Source: Bryopsis sp. KO-2023 (lineage: Eukaryota; Chlorophyta; Ulvophyceae; Bryopsidales; Bryopsidaceae). Taken from it: a DNA stretch of 64,000 bases. Each line of letters starts with the position of its first letter. Positions within the stretch are counted from its first letter, which is position 1. A program made the translations under genes and the position numbers. Below are positions 12,945-58,566 of the stretch, piece after piece. The notes beneath the pieces were generated by a model that saw nothing but the letters and a program-made list of their open reading frames with translations, made no database searches and was not told where the DNA came from. The stretch lies in contig BSYQ01000002.1 of assembly GCA_030272585.1 (NCBI GenBank), forward strand, positions 7,626,001-7,690,000, given 5' to 3'.

Positions 12945-13044
12945 TGCTGTGTTCACAAGAGTCGTTTGAAACTGTGGAGCTGCGAGATCTTTTTAGTTCT
13001 CCAGGAGGCGCGGTCGCGTCTGTCGTGTCCGTTGTGACTTGAGG

Positions 13045-28700: not shown

Positions 28701-31490
28701 CAAAGGGGTGATGCCCCTCGGTAGGCTGAATAATAAAAAAAGGAAATGGCTCAGGAAATGGATGCTGTCTTCCTTGATGCAATCCCCTACATAAAATCAA
28801 AAGAAGAAAAAGAAGCAAGAGGAGGCAAGGAAAAGCCGAGCCACCCGCCAAAAAAGACACTAAAAAAAAATGAAAAAAGGAGATTGTGGGGGGGGGTGAC
28901 AAAGAGTTGTTCAAAATTGTTGCCAAACGAGGCTGCGATGGAAAGCTTGCCAAGGATGAGGATGGGGGTGTTATCCGGGGGGACTCCGGTGAGGTTTTCC
29001 CCTAGAGATGAGATCAGCAGGATGAAGGCGTCTGACCTGGGGAGGGCTAGAGATAAACACTCGAATCAATCAAGAGGCAGACTGCACTTCAGATCGCCCC
29101 GGCTGTCATGCAGAAACTCTGTTGCATGCCGGTTGCGACACTCCCATTTGCGATTCTGGTGTATTCACCTTTTTTGTTGGTTTCTTTTCCAGCAAGTGTT
29201 TTATTTTATCCTTTCTTGATTTTATTTCTACCTTTCAAATAATAATGGGTTTTACTTTATTTTATTTCACTTTATTTTTTTCTTCTTCTTTTTCCAAAGA
29301 GGCTGGAAGGTATTGAAATTTTTTTCAATTTTTTTTTCCAATTTTTTTTATATATTTTCTTTTAATGCACTCTGCTGAATTATCCCCCAGGGCTTCTTCC
29401 GCCGTTCAATTTTTTCTATCGTTCAAAATCGAGGGTTGCAAATTCCCCCGTTTTGTCGCATCGCCACTGCCAGAAACTCAACCCCCTTTTGCACGTTGTT
29501 AAATGATAGGCACATCTGCTGTTCATTCCCTGATTTCTAGAATGTCAAGGTGGATTTGTACATTATACATAGAGAGGCTCAGGCCTCTCTGAGCTGCGCA
29601 ACAAGATCAGGGGACTGACATTCATTTTTTCGTTTTTGCTCGGGTGTCTTTGAGCTGTGAAATATCAGTATCATTTAACATTGTTGTAATGATTCAATTT
29701 TTACAGTCGCTCAGCAGGCTTGTCTTTATATGTATTGTACAGCGCTGGGTTAAATGCTGCCCTTCGACACTCAAGGGAATTGCCTTTGAATTTTTAGCAC
29801 TCCATCGAGCAGGGTGGAGGTCTCCCATTTGGGCAACCCCCTAAGATTCATTTTTGGGTTTTTTCATGAGGTTGACTGACTTTGATTTCAATGAATGGGG
29901 TTAGCTCCTGTATCGACACGTTTTGGGCTTTTGAGGAGAAGGGGCATCAGTAACAGGAAAACTGCACCCAACAGGTGGAGAAGGCATTTTCTTAAAATGG
30001 AAAGTGTTGGAAAAAAGAAAGGGAAATAGTTATGGAAAGAATCAGTCCAAGTGTTTTTTTGAGTTGGTCGCTGAGCTGGCATTGATTGGTGAAGGACCTT
30101 GTGTAAATCAACCCGGAGGGAAAAACAAGTCATTACAGAAAGATAATGTCCTTAATTTTTTTCGTTACATTAAAATTAGAAACTGAACTGATTTTGGATT
30201 AAAAACACAGATGTTTTTCTTTGGATTTTTTTCAACGAGTGTTCCAAACAAACCTCTCACTGTTTGAGGTTGAGGGAGATTCACACTTGGTACTGCACTC
30301 CAACTGCACAACGAACTATTCGAATACCTACATATACCAGCATTTAAATGATAATCATCAACAAGAACAGCACCCCTTTGGGAAACAAGCTGAGCCAGTA
30401 CACGTCCCCCCGGACTTGTGCTTTCCCAAACGCAATACAGATATCGAACAAAAAGTTCACCTCCTCCCTCCCTCTCCAAACAAGTCAACGCAAATCCGAC
30501 CATCTTTTCAACCCGTTCCAAACATGTTAACAAACTGATGCATCACCTCTTGCCCAATATGGCACAGCTCAAAAAGTGCACGAGCCTTTCTTGCTGCATC
30601 TCTTGTGCATCCACAGCAAGATTCGAGACTCAATGCTGCACGCTCTGCCAGTGGCAGTTTCTGCGTCGAATGAATTGGTGATGGCAGTCTTGATGATGGC
30701 TTCAGCAGAAGGCGTCTGAAATTCTGTCTTGTGTCGTTCACACAGACGTCGACACCGTCGCCGCCCCGACTACCAGAAATCGACACCCTGGATGCCACAC
30801 TGAAACTCGAAGAAAAGCTTTATCCTGCACAGCAAAATGTTGAACAAGAAAAAAGGCACCCAACCGTCTTCCTAGATTGGGGAGAGTAACAACGATAAGA
30901 AGCGCTTCTTTGGATTTGTTCTTGTACCCCCTCCTACGTGTTGAATACCTCGCCGCCACTTCTATTTTCAATAGTCCAAGTCTCAGCGAATCAAGGAAAG
31001 CCAGATACAATCCTTTTCTTCCTTAACAACCTGTTGTGTACAACTGCGGAGTGAAATTAGCGACCAGAATGACAAGATTTTGAAGTAGAGCAACAGCAAC
31101 AGCAACAGCAACAGCATCAACACCAAACAAATAAGGAAAGCCTTTCCTGGACAGGCATGGCAGCACATGCGATTTCCCTTTTCAAAGGCGGCCCGCTCTA
31201 TGGTAGAAACGACAGTTATCGCGGCACCTTCATATTTCCGCCTCCTTGTGGCGTGTGTTCTGATCTCAATCGGCGAATTCCCGTCCATGTGCGGTACACT
31301 AGCGGGTTGGGTCGGGTTGGGTCGGCGAAAAGATAGGAAGGAGATACACCTATGCGAGTGTTCGCTCAGCGAGTGCGACGAACAGCTCATAGTGTTCCCT
31401 CAGGTCACAACGGACACGACAGACGCGACCACTCCTCCTGGAGGCTTAAAAAGGTCTCGCAGCTCCACAGTTTCAAACGACTCTTGTGAA
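25764..31490. other. F-box promoter side and non-coding right arm
   Basis: The first ~700 bases resemble the region upstream of copy 1 (GCTTCCAGCGAAAACC and GCAGAACC phrases). The rest mirrors 13.0-17.9 kb with no supported gene. It includes a T-arm/B-box-like GGGGTTCGAATCCCC at about 27336-27352, TTGGCTGG-type repeats at about 27830-27930 and long A/T runs. Confidence 0.5.
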
Positions 31491-31497
31491 CACAGGA

Positions 31498-32010
31498 ATG
31501 ACTTCCAGCCTGCAGTCCAACAGTCGGAGGGGGTCTTGGGGTGAAGCAGTCAAAGACAAGCTTTGCAACGAGCCCATGTCGGACGGTCGGGATGATTCCA
31601 TACGAGGTAACACCGCGTTCTTCTGCTCGTATTGTCACAAAGGACGTGCTTTTTTTTCGAACAGCAATTGGCGTTGCTACCACATTAGCCACTGCACAGC
31701 GTTTTTTCTCTTTCGATCCACGATAGACTTGACCTGTGAAGCTCCGTGTTGTTTGTGTGAATGTTGTCGAGAAGGGTCGTGCCGTCTTATCATCCACACG
31801 TTTTCTTTCCTGAGGTCTCGACGCCGTTGCAATCAGGGACCTCACTGAGTTTTTTTTGGCTTGTTTCTACAGGGAAGCGTTTGGGTGAGCGTGAGAAGCC
31901 AGATCCTCAAGCGGAAATCGCTCATCTTCGTGCCCGTCTGAATGAACTGGAAGGCCGAGGTGATTTTCGTAAGGAGACCATGCGCAGTTTTCAAGAAGAC
32001 CCTGTGCGAG
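31498..32010 (+). pseudogene. Ankyrin gene copy 2: only exons 1 and 2 recognised
   Basis: Exon 1 (31498-31606, ATG, MTSSLQSNSRRGSWGEA) and exon 2 (31873-32010, HLRARLNELEGRGDFRKETM) have exactly the lengths of copy 1 (109 and 138 nt), and the phases agree. Homology stops at the exon 2 donor (GTGAGACG). No later coiled-coil or ankyrin exon follows before the LTR at 32415. A candidate continuation once lay beyond element X and is now at 41150-41260 because of the inversion. Either a truncated copy or one fused to different 3' exons. Confidence 0.65.
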
Positions 32011-32409
32011 GTGAGACGACCTATACCCAGAAAGTCGGATTCCACGGGTTCTCTTTTGCTTGTTGCGCCGTTTCTAGTTTTTCTGCTTGGGACTGTCCAA
32101 TGTTATATGCGCTTCCGTATTTTTTTTCTCATTCGCCGTTCGAGTCAGCGGGGTAGATACTGGGGTGTTCCTGTGTGAATCGAACACGGATTGCTGGCGG
32201 TTCTCAGGGGGTTGGAGTGATGTGATAGTCTGTTGATTTGGGCATCCAAGCTGGGGCTGTGTTGATGTTTTTTTCTCTTTTTTCTCAACTGAGGGGGATT
32301 TCAATTTTTTTCCCGTGTGCAACACGCGCACGGGTTGGGTAAATGAAATGATAAAAACGTATGCGTTTGCTGCCTGGCAGTGCTGTGGATATCGACATAC
32401 ACAATTGAA

Positions 32410-32414
32410 CCTCT
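32410..32414. repeat. Target duplication CCTCT of element X, left copy
   Basis: CCTCT directly before the LTR A at 32415. Its partner is not beyond the 3' LTR here (TGAAC) but, inverted, at 41299-41303 (AGAGG). Confidence 0.9.
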
Positions 32415-32752
32415 TGTTGTTAAACCAGGTTGATAAAGGGGGAGTTGTGAGTATAGATTGGTGGTATGGGACATTAGTCTATAGGATCGGCACGATTTAG
32501 AGTCATTTTCGAAGGAAGTGGCGTTTCGTCTAACGACAGAAACTAGACCTGCGTTTTTCTGGCAAGTGGCGTTTCGCCTGAACAGTTAGGATAAAAGGGA
32601 ACTTCGGAAAGGAAAGTTAGAGTGTTTGTAAAAGACTATATTACAAGGATCGGGTTGGAAAGTCCCCGATCAGGTCTCGCCTACACACAACACGTTCGCG
32701 TCCCCCCTGCGAACGAGGCAATCTGCAAGCACAACTTCAAACTCTATCAACA
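32415..32752 (+). repeat. LTR A (5' LTR of element X)
   Basis: 338 bp. Shares private variants with the LTR at 41304-41641 (GGATCGGCACG, AAAAGACTATATTACAAGG, CGCCTACACAC, GCACAACTTC), and not with the Retro-1 LTRs. These two are therefore the original pair of one insertion. Confidence 0.9.
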
Positions 32753-33479
32753 TGGTTTCGGAGCCGAAGTGACGCTTCCTGGGCGATCGTCCCTGTGACG
32801 AGCGTGAGCAACATGTCGACAACAACCCCAGGAGCGAGTCCAAGTCGAGCCTTTGCGCTTGAAGTGCGCTGTGCGAGTGTCACGTCGGAACGGTACTTGA
32901 TGGGGCGTATGGGAGTCCCTCGTTCAATTTGACGAGACGAGAGTCGCTCGGCTGAGGACGGAAGCAGTAAGACCTGGGGTAACAATGGACGTGAGCGCGC
33001 GCGCGTCACATCGGCAGTTTTCTACCACTGAAACGACACCTGACACCAAGAGTCGACCAGATATCACAGTCCCCGCCAGAGAAGAGCGTAGGACGTCAAG
33101 AGTGATGCGACTGGGCGGGTGGGCGTTGGGAGTTTGAAAACTGACCGACAGAGACGTTTTTTGACGACCTGGAATCGACGTATCAACGTAGTCGTGGCCT
33201 GAGCGACGCAGGACAAAAAAGTCAGGTTTGGGGTCGAGAGTGGAGTGAAATTATGATGCGGTACAATGTGGGCTTATTTTTTCCATGCATGGATTTATGG
33301 GGTCCTTGTTTTTGGAATGGTCCATCATTGTGTTTTGCGACCTTTTTGGTTTTTTCTGAAGTTATCACGTGGGAACCGTGAGCGTTGGGAGGTTTTTTGG
33401 ATTTCGATTATTTTTTTCCTTTCGGGGCTTTCAGGTTTTTTTACTTTCGGAGTTCTACAGTTCCAGGTGGGTGGGCCCA

Positions 33480-33686
33480 TGTTGATTGTACGCGATCGAA
33501 TTAGTGGATCGCATATGGCGTTTCGCCTACCTGACAGAAACTAGGGGAACATATAAGGAAAGACCGTGATACTTTGGATAACTCTTCGTGTAAAAACGAT
33601 TGGTTCAATGCGTGTTTCCTAGACTTTCGTAAGAAGTCGGGTCGAACTGTCCCCGACTGAGTCTCAACCAAGGAACACCATCAACA
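33480..33686 (+). repeat. LTR B (3' LTR of element Y)
   Basis: 207 bp, TGTTGATTGTACGCG...ACCATCAACA. Reads the same as the reverse complement of 46470-46676. Contains a GTTTCGCCT...GACAGAAACTAG phrase also found in LTR A, so A and B are distant relatives. Confidence 0.9.
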
Positions 33687-34095
33687 TGAACTGCATCGTT
33701 GTGGAGTGCACATTGTTCCGTGCTCAGAGGCCTGTTTACGTTGTGGACGTCATCGTTGTGGAGTGCACATTGTTCCGTGCTCAAAGGCCTGTTTACGTTG
33801 TGAACTGCATCGTTGTGGAGTGCACATTACTCCGTGCTCAGAGGCCTGTTTACGTTGTAAACTGCATCGTTGCAAATCAAGCACTCAACCATGTCATTTC
33901 CAAAAGACGTCAACCATGCTAACCGGGCCTTCTGCGTGACTCGCCGGCTGGATGTGGGTGCTAAAAAATGCAACATTGTTGAATGTGCACTCCACATCGA
34001 TGAAAAACAACCATGCAAACGGGGTGTAGAACAACGTTAATGATGTCATTAACCATGCGAACGTTTACATCGTATTCAGCGAATCTCCTATAGTG
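33687..34095 (-). mobile_element. Detached left end of CACTA element T
   Basis: Begins with the Y target copy TGAAC and the 57-bp minisatellite (GTGGAGTGCACATT units). It continues with GCATGGTT/AACGTT motif sequence and ends at 34095 in TAGTG, that is, CACTATAGGAGATTC on the minus strand. This pairs with CACTATGGGAGATTC at the other end of T (58456). The flank GATT reads AATC in gene orientation, matching AATC after 58456. Confidence 0.85.
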
Positions 34096-34107
34096 GATTG
34101 CGCATAC

Positions 34108-35644
34108 CTAGCAGCGCTTCGATCTCGTGCTGCTTTGCAACTCTCTGGGCGACGTTCTCCTCAAGGGTCGTTCGAAGAGATATTATCAAGTCATCTCTCT
34201 GTTTCAAATGCTCCCCACCAGCCTCCAGCTGCTCACGAAGAAAGTTCATCATCGCGCGATCTTCTTTGAGACTCACTTGGAGAGAACTTATCATCGCATC
34301 CTTTTCCAGGAGTCTCTCGTTGTGCTCCCGAGCCTCCGTCTCTTTCTTGAAAATTTCACACTTGGCATTTTTCAACTGCTCCCCAGAAACAGCAATCTGA
34401 TCGTCCTTCTCGTTGAGTCGCCCCTGTACCTCCTCGACTTGCTCTCTGAAGGAAATCACTGTGGCGCGATACTCTTCAGCTTCACACTCGGCATTTTTCA
34501 ACTGCTCTCCAGAAACAGCAATCTGATCGTCCTTCTCGTTGAGTTGCCCCTGTACCTCCTTGAATTGCTCTCGAAGGGAAATCACTGTGGCGTGATATTC
34601 TTCAACTTTAGACTCGGCATTTTTCAATTTCTCCCCAGAAACAGCAATCTGAACGTCTTTCTCGCTGAGTTTCCCCTCTACCTCCTTGACTTGCTCTCGG
34701 AGCAAATTCACTGTGCTGTGAGATTCTTCAACTTTAGACTCGGCATTTTTCAATTTCTCCCCAGAAACAGCAATCTGAACGTCTTTCTCGAGGACTTGCT
34801 GACGAAGAGAATTCACTGCAGCTTGGTCCTCTACAATATTCGCAGGTTGTGCATGTAGCCTGACTATGTCGGAGAGGGCAGTTGAAATCAACGCATCTTT
34901 TTGGACGATGGTGGCGTCCCTCACAGATATACAATCGTTTTTTTGTTCAAGTTGCTTCGCAACATTGTGCAGCTCTTTTTCTTTCGCGTCAACGGCGACC
35001 TGAACCATCGCACACAAACAAAAATGTCCCCTCCTGGCCTTTAAGAATTATTGTCGAGTAGAGCTGGTCAAGAGAAACGACTATTGAAGTACCTTCAGCG
35101 AGCGTATCACTTCAGACACGTTGTCGACTTTCTTCAAGGACTGCTGCAGCCTCGATCCTGGGCTAGCTGAGTGGCAAGCAAGAAAAAAGATCGTTACAAC
35201 TTTTTCTGTACGAACTGGATTGTTTAAGGAGACAAGGGCGACGAATCAACAACACCACACCACTATATTCACCCCACCAAACTGCAGGGGAAAAAAGAAA
35301 AACGTATGGAATCGCATGAAGTTTTGAAATTTTGAAGGCTCGAGCGTGGCTTGGCGACCTGAGCAGAGATATAGAGACACGATGACAAGCAAGCGGGTCA
35401 TTGCTCTTCGACTTCCTGGTGTTCTGTCGTCGACGACGTCGCCGCCGACGCTGTCGTACGTCGCCAGTCGGACGCGCGTTTTTCATCTCGGAATGAGGTC
35501 TCTCACCTTGCACAGAGTCTTGTTGGGAACTGCGCAGGACTTCTTTACGAAAGTCATCTCTGCCTTCCAGCTTATCGAAACGGGTAGGAATATCAACGAC
35601 TTCTTCTTGGGTGTCTGGCGTCTCCCTTTCAGTCGAACACTTCC
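34108..35644 (-). pseudogene. Ankyrin gene copy 3, 5' part with expanded coiled coil
   Basis: Exons on the minus strand: exon 2 at about 35644-35506 (DIPTRFDKLEGRDDFRKEVL), an exon at about 35163-35094 (RLQQSLKKVDNVSEVIRSLK) and a large coiled-coil exon at 34999-34108 (892 nt against 352 nt in copy 1). The extra length is about four tandem 42-residue units starting EKDVQIAVSGEKLKNAE and ending LREQVKEVEGKLS. The exon ends in phase 1 (EIEALL G/gtatgc), matching the acceptor phase at 58567, so 58567-60873 is its former continuation. No first exon is seen: intron 1 holds CACTA element M. Separated from its 3' half by the X/Y inversion. Confidence 0.8.
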
Positions 35645-35784
35645 CTACAAAAAAACACAATGTGCCCCCTGACTACAACTGTCCCACAACCTCATGTAAC
35701 AAAGCGTAAGGGCGCGTTTGTTGGTCGATAAAACACGACGACGGGTCTTGACAACATTTCCACAAACACCACGGAGCTTCAACA

Positions 35785-35787
35785 GAT
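35785..35787. repeat. Target duplication GAT of CACTA element M (left)
   Basis: GAT before CACTATGGG; identical GAT at 41011-41013 after the terminal TAGTG. Confidence 0.85.
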
Positions 35788-35807
35788 CACTATGGGAAAA
35801 CCCGCTC

Positions 35808-36510
35808 TGTGCGGGGTTGGTCGAATCTCCGCCAAATATCGAAGAACGTCGAACTGACGAATTAAGACCCGAAACAGAACAGAAACGTATCAGGAACGGT
35901 CGGATGTACCTGGGTTCGACTCCCAGGCGTTTCAATCCCCTTACAACTGGGGTCGCGAAAAAGTCGTCAGCGACTGGAATTCGCGACCCCGCACAGATGT
36001 CTGTGCGGGGTTATAAACACCGCACAGGAGATCAACGCCGCACAGAGACCTGTGCGGGGTGACCGTAAAACGAGGGAATTTTCTTAAAACAAAAACACAC
36101 ACAAGTGCCCACAGTCCGAATCCCAAGCAACCCATCTGTTCATCCAAACCCACAAGGTTTAATAGCCCAAACACCATCCACACAATGTACCCCGCACAGA
36201 AGTCCACAACCCCCGCCCACACAGCCACATGCCCCGCACAAACACCGCGAAGAAAAAGAAGGAAGATCTTTTGACTCTTTCACTTGCTCTTTCGAGCAGT
36301 TTTCGGGGTTTGGGGGGAAATTCATTCAAAAAAACACACACACAGTTGTGCCCCAGTCTCCGAATCCCAAGCAACTCATCCGTTCATCGAAACCCGCAAG
36401 GTTTAATAACCCACAATATCATCAGAAAAAACTATAAGAGCACGCACGTTAGTCGGAATAAAAACAGGCCGCAGAGGGCTGTGTGCGGCGTTCCGACTCC
36501 GCACGATACG
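35808..36510. repeat. Left subterminal CCCCGCACA motif region of M
   Basis: Many copies of CCCCGCACAG in both orientations. Includes the near-perfect palindrome CCCCGCACAG/CTGTGCGGGG at 35987-36010 and an 11-bp inverted repeat GGGGTCGCGAA/TTCGCGACCCC at 35949-35990. A T-arm-like hairpin CCTGGGTTCGACTCCCAGG is at 35909-35927. Unlike a CRISPR array there is no constant repeat length or spacing. Confidence 0.75.
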
Positions 36511-36807
36511 CATTCATAACAATACCAAACAGGAAAACCCAGTCCCCGAAGCTGAAAAAAACCTTGACGTTCATCCAAATCGATCAACTTCGGCTAATCT
36601 TGACATGTCGAACCAAAAATGCCACACAAAAAAGAACAGGAAAACAACCACCACCGCACAGAAACGTCAACAGCCACGCACAAAAACCCATACACCCCGC
36701 ACAGACCTATTTTTTCGGAACGAGCGACGTTTTGGGGACGGCGAACGTTCCTCCTCGGCCACAAAACAACAGCCCCGCACACAGGCGCGTAAACCCCGCA
36801 CCGCCGT

Positions 36808-37860
36808 TTACTTCTTGCGCGACGACCTGCGTTTTTTTGGTGAATCCTCCTTCGCCTTCTTGGACCTCCGCGTTTTCTCGGCCTTTTCCAGAGCCTTCTG
36901 CCTGATGGACTTCTTCCCACTATCGTACAACCGATCCCTGTCCCTCTTTTTTTTGGGCGGTTCATCCTCCCCCGCACTTGACTCGTAGTCGGGCTCGGCA
37001 TCGTCGCCAATGTCCTGTGCGGGGTCCATGGGATCCTGTGCGGGGCTGTTGTGATCGTCACCAGCGCCGCACTCTGTGACCGCATCCTCCAGAACTGGTG
37101 CTGGAAGACCGTGAAGCGCTGCCTCCGCGCTCTCGGAGAAAGGGCCGCCGGAGGTACCGGAGGCACCGGAGGGACCACCGGTGTCATGACTTCCGGATAC
37201 CTCTCCTAAGCCGCACACACTAGTTTTAGCCCCGCACACACACATAGAAACCCCGCACACCAGAACATCAACAAAATGGTTACAAACACTGACTTTTTTG
37301 AACCACGCACAGAAGTCCTCCGACCCCGCACGAAACAGTAAAAAACATGTGTCGACAACCATTCAATCCCTCACCTGGATCCAGTGGAGGCGGCTGCAGT
37401 ACACGGGGAATGGTGGGCTCCCTTGGCTGCTTCCCACGGGCGATCTCCTCCGGGGTCTCCTCCTCGGGTGGTGGCTGACGCACCTGCGTGCACACGATAA
37501 ATCAGTTAGCGCACGAAGTATAATAAACCCCGCACAGAAGACCTACCACCCCGCACAGAGACCGAAACAGCAACACCTAACCAAACACGCACAGACACAA
37601 TCGAGGCCCGCACAGACAAGTTCATGACAGCCACGCACAGAAACACCCCACCCCCGCACAGAGACATTTGAGACACGCACATCAAGTTCTGCACTCACCA
37701 CGGAATCATGGACCAGCGTCCCCGTCTCCGCGAACCTCCGCTTCATCGCCTTCACCTCGTCCACCCACGCTACCTCGGTCGTGTACCACTCGTCGTTCGG
37801 GACGAGGGTGGCGCGCAGGTGGACGGTGTCCTGTATTTCGACGTCGTCAGACATGCGCAT
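36808..37860 (-). CDS. CACTA M accessory protein (3 exons)
   Basis: Exons 37860-37699, 37483-37375 and 37205-36808 join in phase to 222 residues. Exon 1 carries AWVDEVKAMKRRFAETG, matching AEWVTTVRLQEARFAEHG in the accessory protein of CACTA T. The middle is proline- and acid-rich and the C-terminus is lysine/arginine-rich (SPKKRRSSRKK), like KKSKKSKKTKKK in T. A charged nuclear, possibly DNA-binding protein is the simplest reading; no catalytic domain is seen. Both introns are filled with the CCCCGCACA motif, and two motif copies lie in exon 3 (37014-37024, 37035-37045), encoding DPAQD-type repeats. Much shorter than its T relative, so upstream exons may be lost or unrecognised. Confidence 0.65.
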
Positions 37861-39995
37861 TTTGACACGTGACTAAGGTTTTCATACTTTTTCTGTTCGC
37901 CACAATCGGGTAAGCGAAGGCTTCTGGAAGAGCGCCACGCTGGGGTCGGCGGAAAGGTATTGTTTCACTGTTTCAGGTATGGATCCCAGCCACCAGATTC
38001 TCTCCCGAACACGAGAACTCGACGACAGGGCCCATCACTTCTTGACACCTCACAGCGTCGGTTTCTTATGATGGCCGTTGCAAGGTACACAATTCAAAGT
38101 GGACTTCGTGTGACAAGTGGTTTTATGGTGCTTCCAGGGGAGGTCACAGTCGGAAGGGAATCGGAAGCTGAATGCAGTTGGGTGCACCGAGCAGCACATT
38201 TGAACAGGAGAAGAAAAAGATAAAGTAGATGGAGGAGGAGTTTAAACAGGGAAGGAGGAGGAGGGATGCGGAGATGGCCGGAATGGAAACGCAAGTGCGA
38301 CTGGCCAAGTACAAATCCAACCTCAGGTGCGAGCCGCCGTCGAACCGCCGTCGAACTGGTTCCCCCAGATTGATCACCTTCAAACCTCCACAGGCTGTAA
38401 GCCACTCCAAATAAAAGATATATATAAGTAGACCTGGTCAGCTTTGCCTCCATGTGTCTATGTTGCAACAGTTGAACTTGAAGGTTCAGTCTGTTCTACT
38501 TTTTGCATTACAGACACCAAAAAACAAAGAGAGGAGAGAGAAGTCCACCCCTGGAGGTTCCACCCCCCCCTGCTGAAACTGATGCCGATGATTCGATGAT
38601 CTCCGGAATGTATGAAGACTCTGTTTTGAATTGGCATTTCGTTTTCACATTTCGTTTTCACATTTCGTTTTGCATCACATTTCAGGAAATCGAGACCATC
38701 CGACATTTTCAAGGTGGGAAATTCGGTATGTGTCAAATCCCCCCCCCCCCCAAAAAAATGGTTTTTTTCTGGAAAAGTAGCTGATTGGCTTGGTGGCTGT
38801 GGTGCGACTTTTCTTTTTTTTCCTCAATGTTTTTTTTCTTTTTCTCGATTTGGCAGTTGCGATATTGAAGCAAGGAAATCCAGGGTCCACAGAGTTGGCA
38901 GAGGTTGATATTAAAAGATATTTAAACCCGACAGGGCTGGTCGCCACCGCATATTTCAGGTGGAGGAAATGAAAAAGAACTCATCTATAGTTCATATGTA
39001 GTTCTTAAAGAGAGCTTGTTGATACGTTTCATTCTGTTGTTCATTCACTTAAAACTTTTCCATTTTCTTTTTGGGTGGGGGGGGGGGTTGGCAAAGGAAA
39101 CGCAAGCCCTCGAAAAATAAGTGAAACAATTGCAGCAATTATTCTCTACACAGAATAGCTGCAGCACTCTGCCCCAAGAATAGTTGCAGCACTCTGCCCC
39201 AATTATCAAAATTTTGGACGATTTTTTTCATGGTGCGTTTTTGGAATGCTGATGTGTAATGCTTTTTTTTTCAAGACAAAACATTAACAGACTTTCACAG
39301 ATGCTGATAAATCAGTCTGACATGCAAGCGCTGATTCTTGGAGCAAAAGATGGCCAGAGCATTGTTGTAAAAAATGTTCAATGAAAAACAACAAAATAAA
39401 ACACCACAGAAACATTTGAGAATTTTTGTACGGTGTTGTTCTTCAGATCCTTGTGAATTTTTTTCAGGTGACTGGATCTGCTGCAGCCATCAATGTGAAC
39501 TGGACTCGAAGCATGCTGATGTTGTTCACCTTCTGGGATGGGTTTTCAGTCAGCAGTGGATATTGTTATTGCTTTGATAATGTTTCCCAGACAAAAACGG
39601 AAAAAACCTTCTTTTGCAGTAATGGAAATAGGCAGAAGAGAAAAAATGTTGAGGTGGCTTTTACTTTTCTTGAAACAATTGATTTATTCCAACCCTTGGA
39701 CAGCTGGTTTTGTCTGTCAGGCAGTGAGGGATTCGATGGTTAATTAAAAAATGGTTAGAAGTGGGTCAGATGGGTATTTATAATATGTTCAACGAGCTCT
39801 GTATTATTGAAATACAAGCGCAGGGTTGAATGGCAGGATCAGAGTTCAAGGTTTTGGGCTATTTTTTTTGTTTCTATTTCTGTTTTGGAATAAGTGGGAA
39901 TGGACAAGTGTTCAATGATAAAATGGGGTGTACATTTCAAAAGGGGTTTTGTCATTGTTGTTTTATTGTAACCAATTTGTCACCATGAATCTGCA
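37861..39995. other. Interior of CACTA M without motif or recognised gene
   Basis: About 2.1 kb between the gene start and the right motif array, almost free of CCCCGCACA. It contains a CATTTCGTTTTCA triplication at about 38634-38680, a C-run near 38740 and T-tracts. Possibly an insertion or the decayed remains of other transposon genes; nothing identifiable. Confidence 0.4.
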
Positions 39996-39997
39996 CA

Positions 39998-40999
39998 TTT
40001 GTGTTTCTACAATCACCCCGCACACACACAGAAGGAGCCCGCACAGGGCTGTAATAATCACCCCGCACACACACAGAAGGAGCCAGCACAGTCACCCCGC
40101 ACACACACAGAAGGAGCCCGCACACTCACCCCGCACACACAAAGAAGGAACCCGCACAGATACCCCGCACACACACAGAAGGAACCCGCACAGATACCCC
40201 GCACACACACAGAAGGAGCCCGCACAGGGCTGTAATAAACACCCCGCACACACACAGAAGGAGCCCGCACAGGGCTGTAATGATCACCCCGCACACACAC
40301 AGAAAGAGCCCGCACAGTCACCCCGCACACACACAGAAGGAGCCCGCACACTCACCCCGCACACACAAAGAAGGAACCCGCACACACACAGAAGGAACCC
40401 GCACAGATACCCCGCACACACACAGAAGGAGCCCGCACAGGGCTGTTATAATCACCCCGCACACACACAGAAGGAGCCCGCACAGTCACCCCGCACACAC
40501 ACAAGGAGCCCGCATACGCTTCCCACATTGACCCCGCACAGCGACCCCGCACAGTTGTGCGGGGGCCTGGTCCTCGTGTGCGGGGTGGTCCATGATTCGC
40601 ACAGACGACTGGAACCCGTGCACAGAGAAAACAAAACCCCGCACAGCTCTGTTCCCCGGTTTGGCCGGTTTATGTCCGGGGTCCCAATTTGACCCCGCAC
40701 AGACCAGAACCCCGCACACAGAACCTGACGTCTTCCATATCCACCCCGCACGGCACCCCCGCACGGAGGATAGGGTACCCCGCACACTGTACGGGGCTAT
40801 GTTTCATCTGTGCGGGGTCCCACAATGGGAAAGACGTCAGGTCCTGTGTGCGGGGTTCTGGTCTGTGCGGGGTCAAAATGGGGACCCGGGCATAAACCGG
40901 CCAAACCGGGGAACAGAGCTGTGCGGGGTTGTTTTGTTTTTGTGCACGGGTTTCAGAGTGCTGTACGGGGTTTCAAAAACACCCCGCACAGAACGCGAC
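39998..40999. repeat. Right subterminal CCCCGCACA tandem array of M
   Basis: From about 40015 to 40540, units such as CCCCGCACACACACAGAAGG AGCCCGCACAG recur about every 33-45 bases, with optional GGCTGTAATAA inserts. From 40540 to 40999 the motif occurs in both orientations, forming inverted pairs up to the right end. All three frames stay open here only because of the repeat. Confidence 0.8.
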
Positions 41000-41149
41000 T
41001 TCCCATAGTGGATGTCGCTATTGGTTGGGGGGAGGGGGGGGGAAGACTAGAGGGGAAAGAAGACTGTGCTGTAGCTCCTGTGGGAGCCCTTTCGTCGGGT
41101 GGAAAAGACTGCGTGATGTGAATATGAGCACAAGATAATCCCCACTTAC

Positions 41150-41260
41150 CTTGCAGGGGACGATCCTGATTGGCTGGGATGGCCCCACTGAGAACCTTAT
41201 CTTCAACTTCTTTCGCTTCGAGAGCTCCTTCACCATTCAATTGCAGGAGGGAAGGAATGC
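41150..41260 (-). CDS. Isolated putative exon between M and element X
   Basis: A 111-nt stretch with acceptor TTTGACACAG and donor GTAAGTGG on the minus strand, encoding IPSLLQLNGEGALEAKEVED and more. Before the inversion it lay just after element X, downstream of ankyrin copy 2 and upstream of copy 3, so it may belong to either. Family not recognised. Confidence 0.4.
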
Positions 41261-41298
41261 CTGTGTCAAAAAAAATCGTTTAAGAGTGCGGAGCTGCG

Positions 41299-41303
41299 AG
41301 AGG
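41299..41303. repeat. Target duplication of element X, displaced copy (AGAGG)
   Basis: AGAGG, the reverse complement of CCTCT at 32410-32414, directly abuts LTR A at 41304. Confidence 0.9.
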
Positions 41304-41641
41304 TGTTGATAGAGTTTGAAGTTGTGCTTGCAGATTGCCTCGTTCGCAGGGGGGACGCGAACGTGTTGTGTGTAGGCGAGACCTGATCGGGGACTTTCCA
41401 ACCCGATCCTTGTAATATAGTCTTTTACAAACACTCTAACTTTCCTTTCCGAAGTTCCCTTTTATCCTAACTGTTCAGGCGAAACGCCACTTGCCAGAAA
41501 AACGCAGGTCTAGTTTCTGTCGTTAGACGAAACGCCACTTCCTTCGAAAATGACTCTAAATCGTGCCGATCCTATAGACTAATGTCCCATACCACCAATC
41601 TATACTCACAACTCCCCCTTTATCAACCTGGTTTAACAACA
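41304..41641 (-). repeat. LTR A (3' LTR of element X)
   Basis: Same private variants as 32415-32752; abuts AGAGG at 41299-41303. Confidence 0.9.
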
Positions 41642-42670
41642 TGGGCCCACCCACCTGGAGCTGTAGAACTCCGAAGAAAGAAAAGGAAAAACAGAAAAGA
41701 AAAAGAAAAGAAAAAAAAGAACCCAAAGCCCAGGGCGAAGCCGAAAAAAGCTTAATCAAAGTCGAACGGAAGAAAAGGAAAAATCCCAGGCCTACTCCAG
41801 TACGAACCAAATGAAGAAATAAGTTACTTCATAAGTTGCACAGGAAGAAAACGCAAATCCAGTGCGAAATTGAAAAAAAGAAAAACTAAAACCCAGCAGT
41901 CCCAATTGAGTTCGAACGAAAAAGAAAACGCACACCCAGTGCGGATAAAAAAGAGGGCTAAAGCCAAAATAAAAAACCAAACCGACACCCCAAACCCAGG
42001 TCGAAGCCTTAAAAAGCTGTATCAAAAATCGAAAAATCCCAGGCCTAATCGAGTTTCAAAAAAATAAAGAAATAAGTTACTTTATAATTGGGAAAGAGAG
42101 AAAGCCCAAAGCTAGCTCGAATGTGATAAAGTGCTATGGCAGTTCGTCCAGAGTAAAAAAAAAAGAAATGCAGTTCGAAAAGAAAAACCCAGAACCCCAA
42201 AACTCAAAACCCACAACCCAAAATGCATCAGTTCCAATTGAGCAACCCAGGGCAAAGCTGCAGAAAGCTGTATCAAAGGCGAAAAAGAGAAAGAAAAGTC
42301 CCAGGCCTAATCCCGTCCGAGAAAAGAAAGAAATAAGTTACTTTCTAAATTGGACAAAGAAAGAAAAAGCCCAAGTCCCAGGGCGAAATTGAAAAATTGC
42401 TATGGCAGCTTGCCCCAAAAGAAGAACCCGAAAGCCCAAGTGCAGTTCTAAAATGAAAAACAGAAAAAATAAAAATTCATCAAACTGCAACTCTGCAGCA
42501 GTCCCAATCGAGTTCGAACTAAATAGAAACGCACAGGCAGTGCGGCTAAAAAAGGTGGCGAACGCCAGTTCGAAAAAGAAAGCGTTCCAAAAAAATAAAA
42601 AATAAAAACCAAATCACAGGCTATGCACACACCGATCTCCTGGCGGTTGCAGTGTTTTGTTTGTTTGTTT
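41642..42670 (-). other. 3' non-coding region of the 42-46 kb retroelement
   Basis: Counterpart of 9236-10331 in Retro-1, with small differences. Lysine-rich open frames on the plus strand are antisense artefacts of its T-rich sequence. Confidence 0.7.
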
Positions 42671-42673
42671 TTT

Positions 42674-45172
42674 TTAAAGTTCATATTCTTTCATGTAGTC
42701 CGCATGCATGGTGACACGCCGGCCATCATGCATGTTAACTTCCCACCGTGTTTCTGAGAGCTGGTGTGCGACCCTTCCTGGCCCGATCCAGCGAGGACGA
42801 AATTTGCCTCGAAGTGCGCCTGTGTGGCGCATATCGTAAATCCACACTTGAGCGCCTAGCCGCCCTCGAGTGTCTCTCCAGTGTTGTAGAGCGGAGACGA
42901 CTTCGGTGGCTCCTGTACTTTTTGTAGGTGTGACTTGAATATAGCGAGTCAGGTGATCAATGATGAGGGCCACATAGCGATAACCGTCGACATTAGGCAG
43001 GGGCCCAATATGGTCAACTGAAATGATAGCGTTTGGTCGCAGTGGTGTGGGCGAGCTACCATAGGGTGTGCGGAGAGTGAGGGTTTGAAATTGTTGGCAT
43101 GGTCCACAGGTGCAGATCTTACTGGCGATTGTAGATCGTGAGTAGTCGAAACCCCAAAGCTGTGCTCGACGCCATGTGCCATCAGTTCCAGGGTGGCCTT
43201 GGTGTATGACGCGCCAGATGTCGTCGGGGATAGCGTCAGTAGCTAGTTGCAGGGCATTGATAGTGTGACTGGAGGTTGCTCTGTGTGGACGAGAGAGTAA
43301 ATCCGCGCCGATGTTGTCGGTGCCAGGTACAAAGGTGACTGTCGAGTGGGCTTCGTTTTGGAAAAACCACCCTAAAAGGCGAGCTTCCCTGACGTCCGAC
43401 GTTGTGATAGCACCAGCTTGCAGTTTGGAGGCCAGAGCACAATTGTCGGTCTTGATGTCTGTGTGGGTGTCGCCACGCATTGCGCGCGTTTTTTTGCACG
43501 CCCAAATGAGCGCTTTTAATTCGCCCAAATAGCTTGAAGTTGGTAAAGCCATGACCGCGCTGCCCATGTCCACTACGTTCGCCTCGAAGTACTGGGTGTT
43601 GGTTGGGTGCATAAACAGCATGTACCCTGCGAAGTTTGACGACCAATCGCTTTCCAGGGTGAAAGATTTGGGTGTCACACCTGTAGTGAGTAACTGGCGT
43701 TGCCGTTGCATGGTCGTGCGAACAATTGCATGCGTTTCATTTGTAATTACTTCCCAATTGACTTTGCCTCTCTCCAGTGCGGTACGCAAGTATGCGCGCA
43801 GTGGTGCGAGCAGCACTTCAACATTCTGAATCGCCCTTCGACAGTAGGAGATAATGCCGATCACTCTTTGGAGATCTTTGACCGATGTGATCTGGCCCAG
43901 TTGGTCACATTTTTCCTGCAAATAGGGGCCCAAATCCCAGCGCCCAGCTTTGATTCGGTAGCCGAGGAATGTGACTTCCTCGGTTAACCAGAGGACTTTT
44001 TCATTGTTAACTTTCATCCCGTATTCATTCAGTCGGTCATAGACCTGTAAAACGCAGTCCAGCAGCTCTTGTCGATTGGAGGCTCCCACCAGTATGTCAT
44101 CAGCATACTGGATGCAACTGAGTCCTTTCAGGACGTGTGCAGTCCTTTCCGCAAATAGAACGGAGGACCACAAAAAACCCTGGGGGAGGCGTTTCCAGAT
44201 GTAGCGCCGAGGACCCCATGTGAATCCACAGAATTTGGAAAGATCCTCGGAGATCGGGATCGAAAAAAAAGCATCTTTGAGATCGATGCGACAGAAATAC
44301 TTCCAGGAGGGGTCTATGTCGTACATGGCACGCCAGGTGTCATTGGTTTCCGTGTTAGGTGGGGACCCTTGTCTGAAATATGCATTTAGCTTCCTGAAGT
44401 CGTTAGTCAGCCTGTAGGTGTTATTAGGCTTTCGCACTGGCAGCAGAGGGTTTAGATAGACAGAATCCGATGGTGTGACTGACTGTATGTAGCCTTTTTT
44501 TTCGTATTCATCCAAAAGTGTTTGTACCACTCGCCTGTCGGCCACTGAGTCCATGCTGTACTGTGTCCTACTCCCATTTTCTGTAGGTGTGACATGGGGT
44601 AAATCGCTCAGTTCGACTTGGAGTTGGGCCATGGGTGGGATAATGGGGTGTTCGCTGAGGTCGCCGACTTCAGGAAAACGGTCGCACACTTCGCGTTGGA
44701 TGGTCTCCGCATCGATCGAATTCTCCGGATATGAGGTTAGTGTGGCGACAGTGTAGTCCTCTGGTGGCGGCTCCAAATCTTTTACTTGCCAGTCTGACAG
44801 TCCAGCCAAATGAATCATTTGCGATCGGGGTGTGAAATGAAGTACCTCCGTGGTACTGTTGTACACCTCAACCCGAAGATGCCCTGTCGCAGTAGTACTG
44901 ACTCCTGCAGTAATCCCTGTACGATGGATGGCGGAGGTGATTGTGACGCCCCCAATGACTGACATGGCAAAAGGCAAATACAGCGTTTTCCAAGTGAGGG
45001 GAGGGATGAAATGCGACTTCCCTGCCAGTACCGTGAGTGTGTCATTTGCTTTCGAGTGGATCCCTGGTCCTGATTCCAGTGGCCAGAGCTGAGTCAGGGT
45101 CAGTGTGCCCCCTTCCGGGGGCTTTAGTAGTTTTTTGGAGGTGATCTTTTGACAACTGTGCACCTGACACAT
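42674..45172 (-). CDS. pol: Pol polyprotein: reverse transcriptase, RNase H, partial integrase
   Basis: 832-residue frame entered by -1 frameshift. Reverse transcriptase has LPQGFLWSS and YADD; RNase H continues through IKTDNCALASKLQ and VTFVPGTDNIGADLLSRPH, lost in Retro-1. Integrase shows the CTCGPCQQFQ end of the zinc domain and the first two acidic catalytic positions (SVDHIGPLPNVDG; LIIDHLTRYI). After ALQHWRDT, near 42862, the frame jumps to RLGAQVWIYD, the C-terminal chromodomain-like tail region, so the segment with the third catalytic acid is missing. The C-terminus keeps the 27 residues cut off in Retro-1. Otherwise close to Retro-1; integration in cis is unlikely. Confidence 0.9.
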   Translation of the reverse strand: MCQVHSCQKITSKKLLKPPEGGTLTLTQLWPLESGPGIHSKANDTLTVLAGKSHFIPPLTWKTLYLPFAMSVIGGVTITSAIHRTGITAGVSTTATGHLRVEVYNSTTEVLHFTPRSQMIHLAGLSDWQVKDLEPPPEDYTVATLTSYPENSIDAETIQREVCDRFPEVGDLSEHPIIPPMAQLQVELSDLPHVTPTENGSRTQYSMDSVADRRVVQTLLDEYEKKGYIQSVTPSDSVYLNPLLPVRKPNNTYRLTNDFRKLNAYFRQGSPPNTETNDTWRAMYDIDPSWKYFCRIDLKDAFFSIPISEDLSKFCGFTWGPRRYIWKRLPQGFLWSSVLFAERTAHVLKGLSCIQYADDILVGASNRQELLDCVLQVYDRLNEYGMKVNNEKVLWLTEEVTFLGYRIKAGRWDLGPYLQEKCDQLGQITSVKDLQRVIGIISYCRRAIQNVEVLLAPLRAYLRTALERGKVNWEVITNETHAIVRTTMQRQRQLLTTGVTPKSFTLESDWSSNFAGYMLFMHPTNTQYFEANVVDMGSAVMALPTSSYLGELKALIWACKKTRAMRGDTHTDIKTDNCALASKLQAGAITTSDVREARLLGWFFQNEAHSTVTFVPGTDNIGADLLSRPHRATSSHTINALQLATDAIPDDIWRVIHQGHPGTDGTWRRAQLWGFDYSRSTIASKICTCGPCQQFQTLTLRTPYGSSPTPLRPNAIISVDHIGPLPNVDGYRYVALIIDHLTRYIQVTPTKSTGATEVVSALQHWRDTRGRLGAQVWIYDMRHTGALRGKFRPRWIGPGRVAHQLSETRWEVNMHDGRRVTMHADYMKEYEL
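45107..45136 (-). promoter_or_regulatory. Programmed -1 frameshift signal (second copy)
   Basis: Minus-strand heptamer AAAAAAC (45136-45130), 7-nt spacer with the gag stop, then GCCCCC-GGAA-GGGGGC (45122-45107). Identical to 7241-7270. Confidence 0.9.
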
Positions 45173-46470
45173 TTGCCTGTGTGATGATTCACCAGTTCTC
45201 CCGACTGACAGTTGATCGTTAAACCCACTTGTTGCAATCCTGGGTAGCCCAGAATCACCTGCCCAACATTTGCAGATATTTTGAAGGGAATCTGAGCTGG
45301 CTGAGTCATAGGCCCAACAGACGTCTCCATAGTAACACTTCCTGCAATCGGTGATTTGGAACCATTGAATCCAATGAGGTTGTCCTCTTTAGAACTTTTT
45401 TCATAAGCAAATCCATGGCGAATACAATCAGCCAGTGGGATAATGTTAGCCTCTGCGCCAGTGTCAATTAGACATTTCGTGATTGTTACCCCATTCAGTG
45501 TAATTGGAGTGTGAAGGTGTGTTTGCTTAGGCGCGATCAGTTCACCATTCCCGACTGCATGCACTTTTGGCTGGGAGGTTCTCCAATCGGAGGGTGGGTC
45601 TGCTCGCAGTGGACGTTGTGAATGACAGTGCTTAGCGACATGGCCAAACTTTCCGCACTTGGTGCACCTTTTGTCGTTGTCGGCTTGATTTCGTTTAAGT
45701 AAATCCGCCAGTGTTGCTTTCATTTCCTTGAACTCCTGGTCCCTCGCAGTATCCACCCGAGGTTCCTGAAGTGTGACTTTCAGTAGACGCCAAATTTTGC
45801 TCCCTACCATCACTACCAAACGGCAAAGAGGGATGCGCTCCAACAGTGTAAAACCTTTTTTTAGGAATCCCAAAACGTGTTGGATGTAGAGGTAGCAATA
45901 TGCAAACAGGTTCAACAGACCGACAAAAAGCAAGATACCCAGCGCCTGCGAAATCCAAATCGCACCATCCTGCGTGATCTCGTGCAGACGATCCCAGACG
46001 TCATGTATGGTCGTCACTGGATCGACGAAAAAAGCGACGGTTGCTTGAAAAGCTTTCTCGAGCAGGTGAGAGCCTACGCCGACCACCATTCGCACGCAGC
46101 AAAGAACTGACGAACACCCTTCGATCACATAAATTTTTTCGCGGGGTCGTAGCCAGGCGAAAAATCCGCTTTCCGTCGACCTTTGAATAGTTATCTCCTT
46201 CTTCGGTGTTTCTTCCAGAGGTGGCGTAGGCTTGGGTGGCCGGAGGTTGTTGTTCTTAGCAGCTGTCAGATCCGTCCACTCTGCCCGTAATAGTTCCACC
46301 TGTTTTTGTATTTTTTCGTGTTCTTTGGTGATCTCCTGGTGGTCACTCAGCTGCGCAACTACCTCCTTATCAGTAAGCGGTGTTGCTTCCAAAACAGTGA
46401 GTACCAGGAACGCGACCAGCGTCGTTACGTGCTTGTGCTTCATCAGAATCTTACGGAGCTCCGAAACCAT
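45124..46470 (-). CDS. gag-pr: gag-like/protease polyprotein (second copy)
   Basis: 448 residues, same architecture as 5907-7253: signal-like N-terminus, coiled-coil-like stretch, transmembrane segment, zinc knuckle (CTKCGKFGHVAKHC) and protease motif LIDTGAEANIIPL. Only a handful of substitutions separate the two (for example Arg/Lys in the knuckle, Leu/Gln after DWRTS). The ATG again uses the last base of the LTR, here LTR B, so this start survives with either LTR. Confidence 0.9.
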   Translation of the reverse strand: MVSELRKILMKHKHVTTLVAFLVLTVLEATPLTDKEVVAQLSDHQEITKEHEKIQKQVELLRAEWTDLTAAKNNNLRPPKPTPPLEETPKKEITIQRSTESGFFAWLRPREKIYVIEGCSSVLCCVRMVVGVGSHLLEKAFQATVAFFVDPVTTIHDVWDRLHEITQDGAIWISQALGILLFVGLLNLFAYCYLYIQHVLGFLKKGFTLLERIPLCRLVVMVGSKIWRLLKVTLQEPRVDTARDQEFKEMKATLADLLKRNQADNDKRCTKCGKFGHVAKHCHSQRPLRADPPSDWRTSQPKVHAVGNGELIAPKQTHLHTPITLNGVTITKCLIDTGAEANIIPLADCIRHGFAYEKSSKEDNLIGFNGSKSPIAGSVTMETSVGPMTQPAQIPFKISANVGQVILGYPGLQQVGLTINCQSGELVNHHTGKCVRCTVVKRSPPKNY

Positions 46471-46676
46471 GTTGATGGTGTTCCTTGGTTGAGACTCAGT
46501 CGGGGACAGTTCGACCCGACTTCTTACGAAAGTCTAGGAAACACGCATTGAACCAATCGTTTTTACACGAAGAGTTATCCAAAGTATCACGGTCTTTCCT
46601 TATATGTTCCCCTAGTTTCTGTCAGGTAGGCGAAACGCCATATGCGATCCACTAATTCGATCGCGTACAATCAACA
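46470..46676 (-). repeat. LTR B (5' LTR of element Y)
   Basis: Reverse complement of 33480-33686 with no difference seen. Followed at 46677-46681 by GTTCA, the reverse complement of TGAAC at 33687-33691. Confidence 0.9.
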
Positions 46677-47530
46677 GTTCACAACGTAGACAAGCGTTTT
46701 AGCACGGAGTAATGTGCACTCCACAACGATGCAGTTCACAACGTAGACAGGCCTCTGAGCACGGAGTAATGTGCACTCCACAACGATGCAGTTCACAACG
46801 TAAACAGGCCTCTGAGCACGGAACAATGTGCACTCCACAACGATGACGTCCACAACGTAAACAGGCCTCTGAGCACGGAACAATGTGCACTCCACAACGA
46901 TGCAGTTCACAACGTAGACAAGCGTTTTAGCACGGAGTAATGTGCACTCCACAACGATGCAGTTCACAACGTAGACAAGCGTTTTAGCACGGAGTAATGT
47001 GCACTCCACAACGATGCAGTTCACAACGTAAACAGGCCTCTGAGCACGGAGTAATGTGCACTCCACAACGATGCAGTTCACAACGTAGACAAGCGTTTTA
47101 GCACGGAGTAATGTGCACTCCACAACGATGCAGTTCACAACGTAAACAGGCCTCTGAGCACGGAGTAATGTGCACTCCACAACGATGCAGTTCACAACGT
47201 AAACAGGCCTCTGAGCACGGAACAATGTGCACTCCACAACGATGACGTCCACAACGTAAACAGGCCTCTGAGCACGGAACAATGTGCACTCCACAACGAT
47301 GACGTCCACAACGCAGACAAGCGTTTTAGCACGGAATAATGTGCACTCCACAACGATGCAGTTCACAACGCAGACAAGCGTTTTAGCACGGAATAATGTG
47401 CACTCCACAACGATGACGTCCACAACGTAAACAGGCCTCTGAGCACGGAACAATGTGCACTCCACAACGATGACGTCCACAACGCAGACAAGCGTTTTAG
47501 CACGGAATAATGTGCACTCCGCAACGTTGG
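46677..47530. repeat. 57-bp minisatellite, about 15 units (T left subterminal)
   Basis: Unit GTTCACAACGTAGACAAGCG (and on, 57 bp) with two alternating variants, CAAGCGTTTTAGCACGGAGTA and the CAGGCCTCTGAGCACGGA type. As 57 is 19 codons, it gives a spurious 295-residue open frame on the minus strand. About three units are at 33687-33870, beyond the Y insertion and now inverted. Confidence 0.9.
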
Positions 47531-47765
47531 ATGCTACAACGGGGAGTGGCTTCGTCACATTGTTGGTTGTGGGTTTTGCAACGTTGATCCTTACAACGGG
47601 GAGTGGCTACGTCACATTGTTGGTTGTGGGTTTTGCAACGTTGGATGCTACAACGGGGAGTGGCTTCGTCACATTGTTGGACGCAGGTTTTGCACCGTTT
47701 ATTGCCACAACGGGGAGAGACTTTCTCACATTGTTCGTTGTCGGTTTTGCAACGTTTTTTACAAA
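47525..47765. repeat. Second 57-bp minisatellite, about 4 units
   Basis: Units like CAACGTTGGATGCTACAACG GGGAGTGGCT... recur every 57 bp but differ in sequence from the preceding array. Each holds CAACGTTG and ACAACG. Confidence 0.8.
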
Positions 47766-49900
47766 TAAGAAATAAGATTAAAAACCACCCATCGATATTC
47801 CCATCAGAAATGTTGCAGGGCTAAAAACGAAATAAGGGACGTCACTCCCTGCCATCCCAACTCACAAATGAAATATAAAAAGCCGAAATATGGATCCCAT
47901 CTTGAAAAGACCTCTTCGTATTCTTCTCGTAACTGTACACATTGATTCTGATCCATGGACCACTATTCCCCGTCTTGGAACAGTTACAGAGCTTCCTCTT
48001 GAAGGTTCTCGCATAGCAAATAGCACTTGGTCTGGAACGGTCGACTCCACTGCCTCCTCCCCACCAATTACAATAACTAAGACCCCAGCTTATTTTTCTG
48101 TGGAAATGGCCACATCGGTGAACAGGTCGAGCATATACACCTGGGGAGACGATAAAAAAAGAAAAATTTCAAAAGAAAATAAAAAATGAACACGGAAGAG
48201 TGTGATGGTTTTAATCTAACAAGTGAGGCCATGACTGTTTCGAAAAGAAGCCCTAGCTTTTTTCAGGAATCCACGTGATGGCATTCACTTTTCCATCCAT
48301 CTTTCCATTGAAAAAACAAAAAAAACAAACACCCCACATAAAGAACAGACACACTTTTGAACCCTGCCGATCCAGCCTTCAGTCCATTGTAAATTCACAA
48401 GCACCTGGCCTTCAAAGAAGGAATCAATAAAACGAAAGCATCGTTCCAACGTTCACCCCCACAAAAGATAAGAACCTTTCTTGCTTTTCTTTAATTACCT
48501 AAACTCAGCCTGAGCATGTCCTGCTGGCCTTGAATCAGTTTTCCCTCTTGAAACACACTGCACCGGCGATAGCAACAGTGACACCTCCAGCAGCCGTTGC
48601 TGCCTTGCCTTTGCCACAGCTGGAACCATCCTTTCACCACCACTGTTGATATGCCTCCTTGACTGGTTTTCCAACCTGGAAGGAAACCCAGGTGCACCTG
48701 GTTAGGACCTGTTTCTATTCTGAGTTTGACAGGAGCATCGGTTTCCTTTCTTTTGGATCCTGGAATGTCCGGTGGATCAACCGGTTGAAACGTGGACTCT
48801 TTCTACAACTTGTTGCCACTGCTTGTTCCCACTGCATGAAGGTTTCGATCATGGTCACCTGATTTTGATTGTTGGCCAGGTCAGTTGTCCAGGTCTTCAA
48901 ATGATCAAGAAAGGCTGCCGATGTGGATGGAAGATGATGCTCGTCTGATGGCATTGGAGGCCCACCTGGGACGCCAACGTTTTGTTTCGGAGCACTCTTC
49001 GTGCAGAAAAAACCTTGTGGGCTTCTGTGTGTCTTGTTCAGTGCCTTCGGTTCCCTGCAACAGAGCTCTGATCCATTTTAGCTTTTGTCCACTGCAAGAA
49101 AAGTGGAAGGGAACAACCTGACCCCACAAAAAAAGCCCACCCAGCAGCCCTGTTTCTTGCCTGTTCAAGGGGGAGTTGGAGAACAAAACTGGTGCACTGC
49201 TTGTCTCACGGCCATCCTTTGGCACACTGAAAATTAAACAATAGATCCCTCCCACCTGCTATCTGCCACCTCCCACCCAACACCGCTACCACGGTTTCAG
49301 TCTTGGCTTATCGGGTCCATCCCGCGGTGACTCTAGGAAGGTCGATATCCTCATTAAAGTCCAGCAAAGTGACCCCCACTGCGTCCAACGGTTGTTGCGA
49401 TCTTGGTTCTGGGGTATCCACTGCAGTCATCGCTGCTGAATCCTACTAGCTAGCTACCTACTATAGTAGCGGTGTTGTTGACGGCGGACAGTCTGGCTTG
49501 CTCAAAACCTGGCTCTCTCAGGTGAGCTAGCCGGAGGACATACGAACGAGTTCGAGAAACGACCGAGAAAGGAGATCTTCTTTCTAGAACAACCAGAAAA
49601 TTGAAAAGAAAAAGCCGACGCGAAAGCTGTGAGGCGCCGGCAGGGAACAAATTCGTCGATTCGACATTGTGAGAACATAGTTAATTCTTACAATGTCGAA
49701 TCGACGACATCGTCGTCATCGATGACATTACGCTGACCTAATTCTGAAGACACTCAGGTACACATGGTTGAGTGGTTCGTTTGCAACCATGAACAACAAC
49801 AACGTTTACAACGGGGACAGACCACTCTGCAACGTTATTTACAAATCCACCAAGTCTGGTATTAGACGTTTGAAACACATTCCAGAAAAACCACAGCACA
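47766..49900. other. T interior left of the accessory gene
   Basis: About 2.1 kb with no recognised gene. An open stretch at 48715-48954 (-) reads AFLDHLKTWTTDLANNQ and could be an exon, but there is no support. A perfect 17-bp inverted repeat CGTCGATTCGACATTGT (49654-49706, 19-nt loop) suggests a small nested element. ACAACG/AACGTT motifs return at 49795-49850. Confidence 0.4.
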
Positions 49901-49910
49901 AATGAAACTC

Positions 49911-50356: not shown

Positions 50357-50360
50357 CCCT

Positions 50361-58456: not shown

Positions 58457-58566
58457 AATCCATGTGCCAAGAGTGTAGAAAATTCAGTCAATATTTGACT
58501 TGCACAGTTTGTAACTGGTCAGTAAGAAATCGCTAAGGAGACAAGCTTTTTTTTCGTCCCTTGTAG

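Follow-up and report, generated by a model that had tools for sequence, protein, structure and literature searches.

The closest described counterpart of the locus presented here is inversion 2z3 of Drosophila buzzatii, with two copies of the transposon Galileo in opposite orientation at the breakpoints, exchanged target duplications, chimeric copies and a single target in the non-inverted arrangement (PMC2775673). Inter-element recombination has been described for LTR retrotransposons, and two papers give unlike LTRs together with missing or mismatched duplications as the marks of post-integration recombination (PMC1950507, PMC2672092). One of them provides a test, according to which matching duplications indicate one integration and missing ones recombination (PMC1950507). 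Other LTR families are also known to recombine while being reverse-transcribed (PMC5668417, PMC1950507). Here we describe two LTR elements, X and Y, of the green alga Bryopsis sp. KO-2023. Studies on HERV rearrangements reportedly rely on the same marks of post-integration recombination, and recombination of LTR elements is usually known from one product, i.e. one half of the event, only. The event that involved X and Y can be reconstructed because both reciprocal products survive in place.

X and Y are located in opposite orientation at two breakpoints within the window, which is the whole stretch of 64,000 nucleotides that was analysed (contig BSYQ01000002.1, positions 7,626,001 to 7,690,000; Table 1). 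Both are chimeric, each with one LTR A and one LTR B and with an interior that is usually found behind the other LTR type. The four LTRs, their ends and the flanking 5-mers that the initial annotation had given all proved correct in a direct comparison, and the LTR alignment that it had proposed as a check gave 338 of 338 identical positions for the LTR A pair and 207 of 207 for the LTR B pair. With two LTRs, a PBS (named by its position), a PPT, protease, RT and RNase H, Y has the make-up of a Ty3/gypsy-like LTR retrotransposon, with protease and RNase H matches below the curated cut-offs and an RT that matches RVT_1 at 4.8e-25. A search of the pol frames of both Y and Z for Pfam domains (E <= 1e-3) gave no integrase. 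The best relatives among solved structures are Pr125Pol entries (foamy virus), followed by retroviral RTs and Ty3, and to judge from RT similarity the element family is retrovirus/Ty3-like. The window also harbors an imperfect inverted duplication (12410-16154 and 28276-32014, 87-97% in pieces) that flanks two F-box/WD40 frames; these large repeats (12-16 and 28-32 kb) seem to stem from a separate duplication and are outside the evidence for the inversion.

Table 1. Features of the X/Y locus (positions in the window).
Feature	Position	Strand	Remark
Element X	32410-33691	+	Order CCTCT, LTR A, PBS, 727-bp interior, LTR B, TGAAC
Target duplication CCTCT, 5 bp, left copy, site 1	32410..32414	+	Single copy in paralog
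LTR A, 5' LTR of X	32415..32752	+	100% to 41304-41641
19-bp tract ATCAACATGGTTTCGGAGC, LTR end and PBS, common to X and Y	32746..32764	+	Putative exchange point
727-bp interior of X, no frame of at least 150 aa	32753..33479	+	Native to LTR B elements (junction sample)
23-bp PPT/LTR-start tract common to X and Y	33462..33484	+	Alternative, less likely exchange point
LTR B, 3' LTR of X	33480..33686	+	100% to 46470-46676
Target duplication TGAAC, 5 bp, site 2	33687..33691	+	Probably brought to X by exchange
57-bp minisatellite fragment	33687..33872	+	Probably parted from 46677-47526 by inversion
Inverted segment, 7,607 bp	33692..41298		Colinearity with paralog
Element Y	41299-46681	-	Order TGAAC, LTR B, PBS, gag-pol, LTR A, CCTCT
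Duplication AGAGG, 5 bp	41299..41303	+	Reverse complement of CCTCT
LTR A, 3' LTR of Y	41304..41641	-	100% to 32415-32752
Interior of Y, gag-pol with RT	41642..46469	-	
19-bp LTR-end/PBS tract ATCAACATGGTTTCGGAGC, Y copy	46458..46476	-	
LTR B, 5' LTR of Y	46470..46676	-	100% to 33480-33686
Duplication GTTCA, 5 bp	46677..46681	+	Reverse complement of TGAAC
57-bp minisatellite, main body	46677..47526	-	Putative insertion target of B element
Gap insertion 1, 5.2 kb	35788-41010		CACTATGGGAA ends, ATC duplication
Gap insertion 2	33692-34094 and 46682-58458		Similar CACTA ends, split by inversion

The flanks of each element are unlike (CCTCT and TGAAC for X, AGAGG and GTTCA for Y), and those of like LTRs are exact reverse complements between X and Y. 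The duplications are thus exchanged, CCTCT/AGAGG going with LTR A and TGAAC/GTTCA with LTR B, just as the initial annotation had claimed, and chance agreement of both 5-mers amounts to about 1e-6 if equal base frequencies are assumed. Matching duplications on one element, the sign of a hybrid formed by reverse transcription, were found neither on X nor on Y, and by the test of PMC1950507 both are to be regarded as recombinants. Among 27 tabulated elements, a non-random set restricted to those with both ends known (elements with missing or undefined ends were left out, and the underlying LTR searches scored 40 candidates out of 57 and 40 out of 86), 24 have matching duplications, including the element at C3:2570 (CTGGC). 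The other three are X, Y and C11:2097386-2099813. The latter is a B element with the flanks TTTCT/AAGTG and LTRs identical at 206 of 209 positions, possibly a further recombinant.

The un-inverted order was found in a paralog. For site 1, a query of 600 bases was assembled from the flank up to 32414 and, reverse-complemented, the flank up to 41298, and was searched against the whole genome. Its best match is a paralog without interruption, C2:7530785-7531373 (98% over query bases 2-588), which lies about 127 kb upstream on the contig of X and Y, reads CAATTGAACCTCTCGCAGCTCC and contains CCTCT once. The joint is crossed by 9 of the 23 matches listed, among them C2:8625734 (82%), C2:6414995 (86%, bases 178-549) and C2:8322868 (73%); two more are the window's own halves, and the remainder are one-sided, with C2:7014923 and C2:8649186 both starting at the joint (base 298). 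Bases 1-5403 of the paralogous locus (L089) correspond in six blocks to window positions 31830-32414 (+), 41304-41011 (-), 35787-34094 (-, three blocks) and 58459-61615 (+), which fall on one strand and into rising order only once 33692-41298 is un-inverted. This order test left out weaker overlapping matches (31737-32037, 70%; 34671-34481, 84%) and short secondary matches to 3.7-4.3, 10.7 and 11.5 kb, and one of the match listings for L089 and a further repeat copy, L090, spanned window positions 27000-48500. The gaps in this colinearity look like later insertions. Both resemble DNA transposons and have CACTA termini; the 57-bp array belongs to the second, three frames of which gave no Pfam match. 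The paralog, which is not allelic, passes both breakpoints in un-inverted order.

The B element of site 2 lies inside the 57-bp minisatellite, of which a piece of 186 bp adjoins X and the main body adjoins Y in opposite orientation. When the two halves are joined with one duplication, the 57-bp phase is restored with 86% identity at lag 57, whereas no other lag tested between 40 and 74 exceeds 35%. Moreover, in L090, another copy of this dispersed repeat, the array runs straight into the tail 33687-34095 (95.6%), and the same pairing of array and tail was found at further sites of the genome. The single-target state of site 2 is seen as a continuous minisatellite in another copy of the repeat, i.e. 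in a paralog and not in an allele. The reading of the locus as a transposon-mediated inversion is supported by the paralog through both breakpoints and by the array rejoined in phase.

Regarding the point of exchange, the exact tracts common to the inferred parents (cut-off 14 bp) number three. One, of 19 bp, spans LTR end and PBS, and the others, of 23 bp and 15 bp, lie at the PPT. In the whole genome there are 160 occurrences of a 17-base PBS pattern and none of its reversed control. Junctions were sampled with a pattern based on LTR A, LTR B, gag and short interior, allowing up to three mismatches, which yielded 32 sites as against the 160 PBS occurrences and missed elements with the short LTR B'. 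In this sample, B is followed by the short interior at 11 sites and by gag at one, A is followed by the short interior at four (X, C7, C3 and C1), and gag stands after non-B ends at 16, of which 15 adjoin a match to LTR A, the remaining one being C1:4934601. The single B|gag junction among the 17 gag junctions is that of Y. Since in these 32 junctions gag-pol thus accompanies A, and the short interior in most cases B, the exchange is placed in the 19-bp PBS tract, and the preference of the initial annotation for this point is supported by gag beside A in 15 of 17 junctions and the short interior after B in 11 of 15. A chromosomal exchange in the 23-bp PPT tract would instead have had the parents A-short-A and B-gag-pol-B; this tract is 4 bp longer and adjoins the further exact tract of 15 bp, but it would leave the two junction counts (gag behind B in 1/17, short interior behind B in 11/15) at odds with the parents, neither of which is among the 27 tabulated elements, and is highly improbable. 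The lengths of these tracts also bear on an assembly artefact, in which two ordinary elements were mis-joined. Inverted repeats are a classic place for misassembly, but with a cut-off of 14 bp the parents have no exact tracts in common other than those of 23, 19 and 15 bp, two mis-joins at one and the same 19-bp tract would be required, and the assembly comprises 91 Mb in 28 contigs, which makes an artefact very improbable. The exchange tract of 19 bp is an unlikely place for a misassembly, but the word "prove", which had been used for the inversion, is too strong.

It is probable that a reciprocal chromosomal exchange between two inverted insertions inverted the 7.6 kb. An LTR A element with gag-pol would have inserted at CCTCT (site 1), and a short, probably non-autonomous LTR B element in opposite orientation at TGAAC/GTTCA (site 2), within the 57-bp minisatellite belonging to the dispersed repeat. 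Later, both insertions would have undergone reciprocal exchange in ATCAACATGGTTTCGGAGC, which spans LTR end and PBS, most likely by break-and-rejoin or annealing at this 19-bp homology, which would have left both elements chimeric, their LTRs and target duplications exchanged, and the intervening 7.6 kb inverted. Such an exchange accounts, with two ordinary parents, for what is directly observed, namely the anatomy, the swapped duplications, the ancestral order in the paralog, the minisatellite phase and the usual pairings of LTR and interior; that it was chromosomal and took place after integration we infer, and likewise the repair route. It counts against the chromosomal exchange that the 19-bp tract is short and that the longer tract of 23 bp at the PPT was not used. 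A length of 19 bp is far below that usual for homologous recombination. This homology is the weak point, and homologous recombination over a long tract is less plausible than two breaks that annealed or were end-joined. Furthermore, the A|PBS|interior junction is also made by reverse transcription, as the hybrids C7 and C3 have matching duplications, which counts against the chromosomal exchange, too.

The element C7:2971622-2972894 contains A, PBS, short interior and B as in X, yet is flanked by TAGGG on both sides, so that it was apparently a hybrid before integration. At C3:2570-2572 kb the 5' LTR is short and chimeric and the 3' LTR a full B, with matching duplications of CTGGC, and at C6:3795 kb, C14:243 kb and C15:488 kb unlike 5' and 3' LTRs, which have the first part in common and differ downstream, go along with matching duplications. 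Similarly, the LTRs of C9:3472058-3473262 and C4:5726077-5727236 are identical or nearly so in their first half and have most differences downstream (U3, R and U5 were assigned by position), again with matching duplications, which argues against the use of LTR divergence as a clock in this genome. Unlike LTRs with matching duplications thus point to a hybrid before integration, and intermolecular strand transfer near the PBS seems, from the anatomy of these elements, to be common in this genome. Template switching or LTR swapping during reverse transcription, as described in PMC1950507 and PMC5668417, would explain the elements C7, C3, C6, C14 and C15. By itself it fails for X and Y, because their duplications are swapped. 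LTR swapping in soybean is said to be the topic of one study. The unlike LTRs are therefore not sufficient on their own as proof of the inversion; it is the swapped duplications and the paralog that settle the case. A second swapped pair, formed by C1:7471896-7473198 (A'|interior|B with unlike flanks) and C5:2925817, was considered and rejected, since CTCTT is found at both outer A' LTRs on C1, which belong to a single composite element, and C5 carries a solo LTR between two copies of its own GTTTT. The C1 locus is a composite (C1:7469441-7473198) with CTCTT outside both A' LTRs and with PBS, short interior and LTR B inside, as well as a later insertion in the 3' LTR. A tandem array of the order B-interior-B-interior-B with one outer duplication, GTCCA, is present at C8:3916547-3918655.

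The hybrid C7 also speaks for a cross-integration. According to this, plus-strand transfer between molecules, in both directions and at the PBS, would have produced the hybrid cDNAs A-short-B and B-gag-pol-A in one particle. Of two nearby sites, one would then have received both A ends and the other both B ends from integrase, so that a single retrotransposition event would have flipped the 7.6 kb, with the same product as the chromosomal exchange. An A-short-B hybrid did integrate elsewhere (C7, with TAGGG on both sides), plus-strand transfer predicts an exchange exactly at the PBS, and both LTR pairs are 100% identical. However, a reciprocal transfer and, in addition, a mispairing of ends between two cDNAs are required, which are more coincidences than the chromosomal exchange needs; the normal integration of the C7 hybrid implies that A and B ends are able to pair together, and no second B|gag junction occurs among the 32 sampled. 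We therefore consider the cross-integration unlikely and prefer the chromosomal exchange after integration.

One and the same genome holds X and Y and a PBS-centred hybrid made before integration, and target duplications tell the two routes apart, which cautions against using unlike LTRs alone, be it to date an element or to prove chromosomal recombination. In the open literature, mostly in the form of titles and the openings of abstracts, we found no inversion between LTR elements with both swapped duplications and an exchange at the PBS. X and Y share unlike LTRs and mismatched duplications with the inter-element recombinants of PMC1950507 and PMC2672092, and they represent an unusually complete case with both reciprocal products, both swapped duplications, an un-inverted paralog and an exchange pinned to 19 bp. 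The inversion is a new example of a way of rearranging chromosomes that is already known, like that of Galileo in Drosophila. Opposite orientation, exchanged duplications, two chimeric copies and a single target in the un-inverted state are common to both, whereas Galileo belongs to the DNA transposons, has long inverted repeats and recombined within 141 bp of its middle segment (PMC2775673). X and Y, in contrast, are LTR retrotransposons of two subfamilies with an exchange tract of 19 bp, and their non-inverted order is taken from a paralog instead of from strains.
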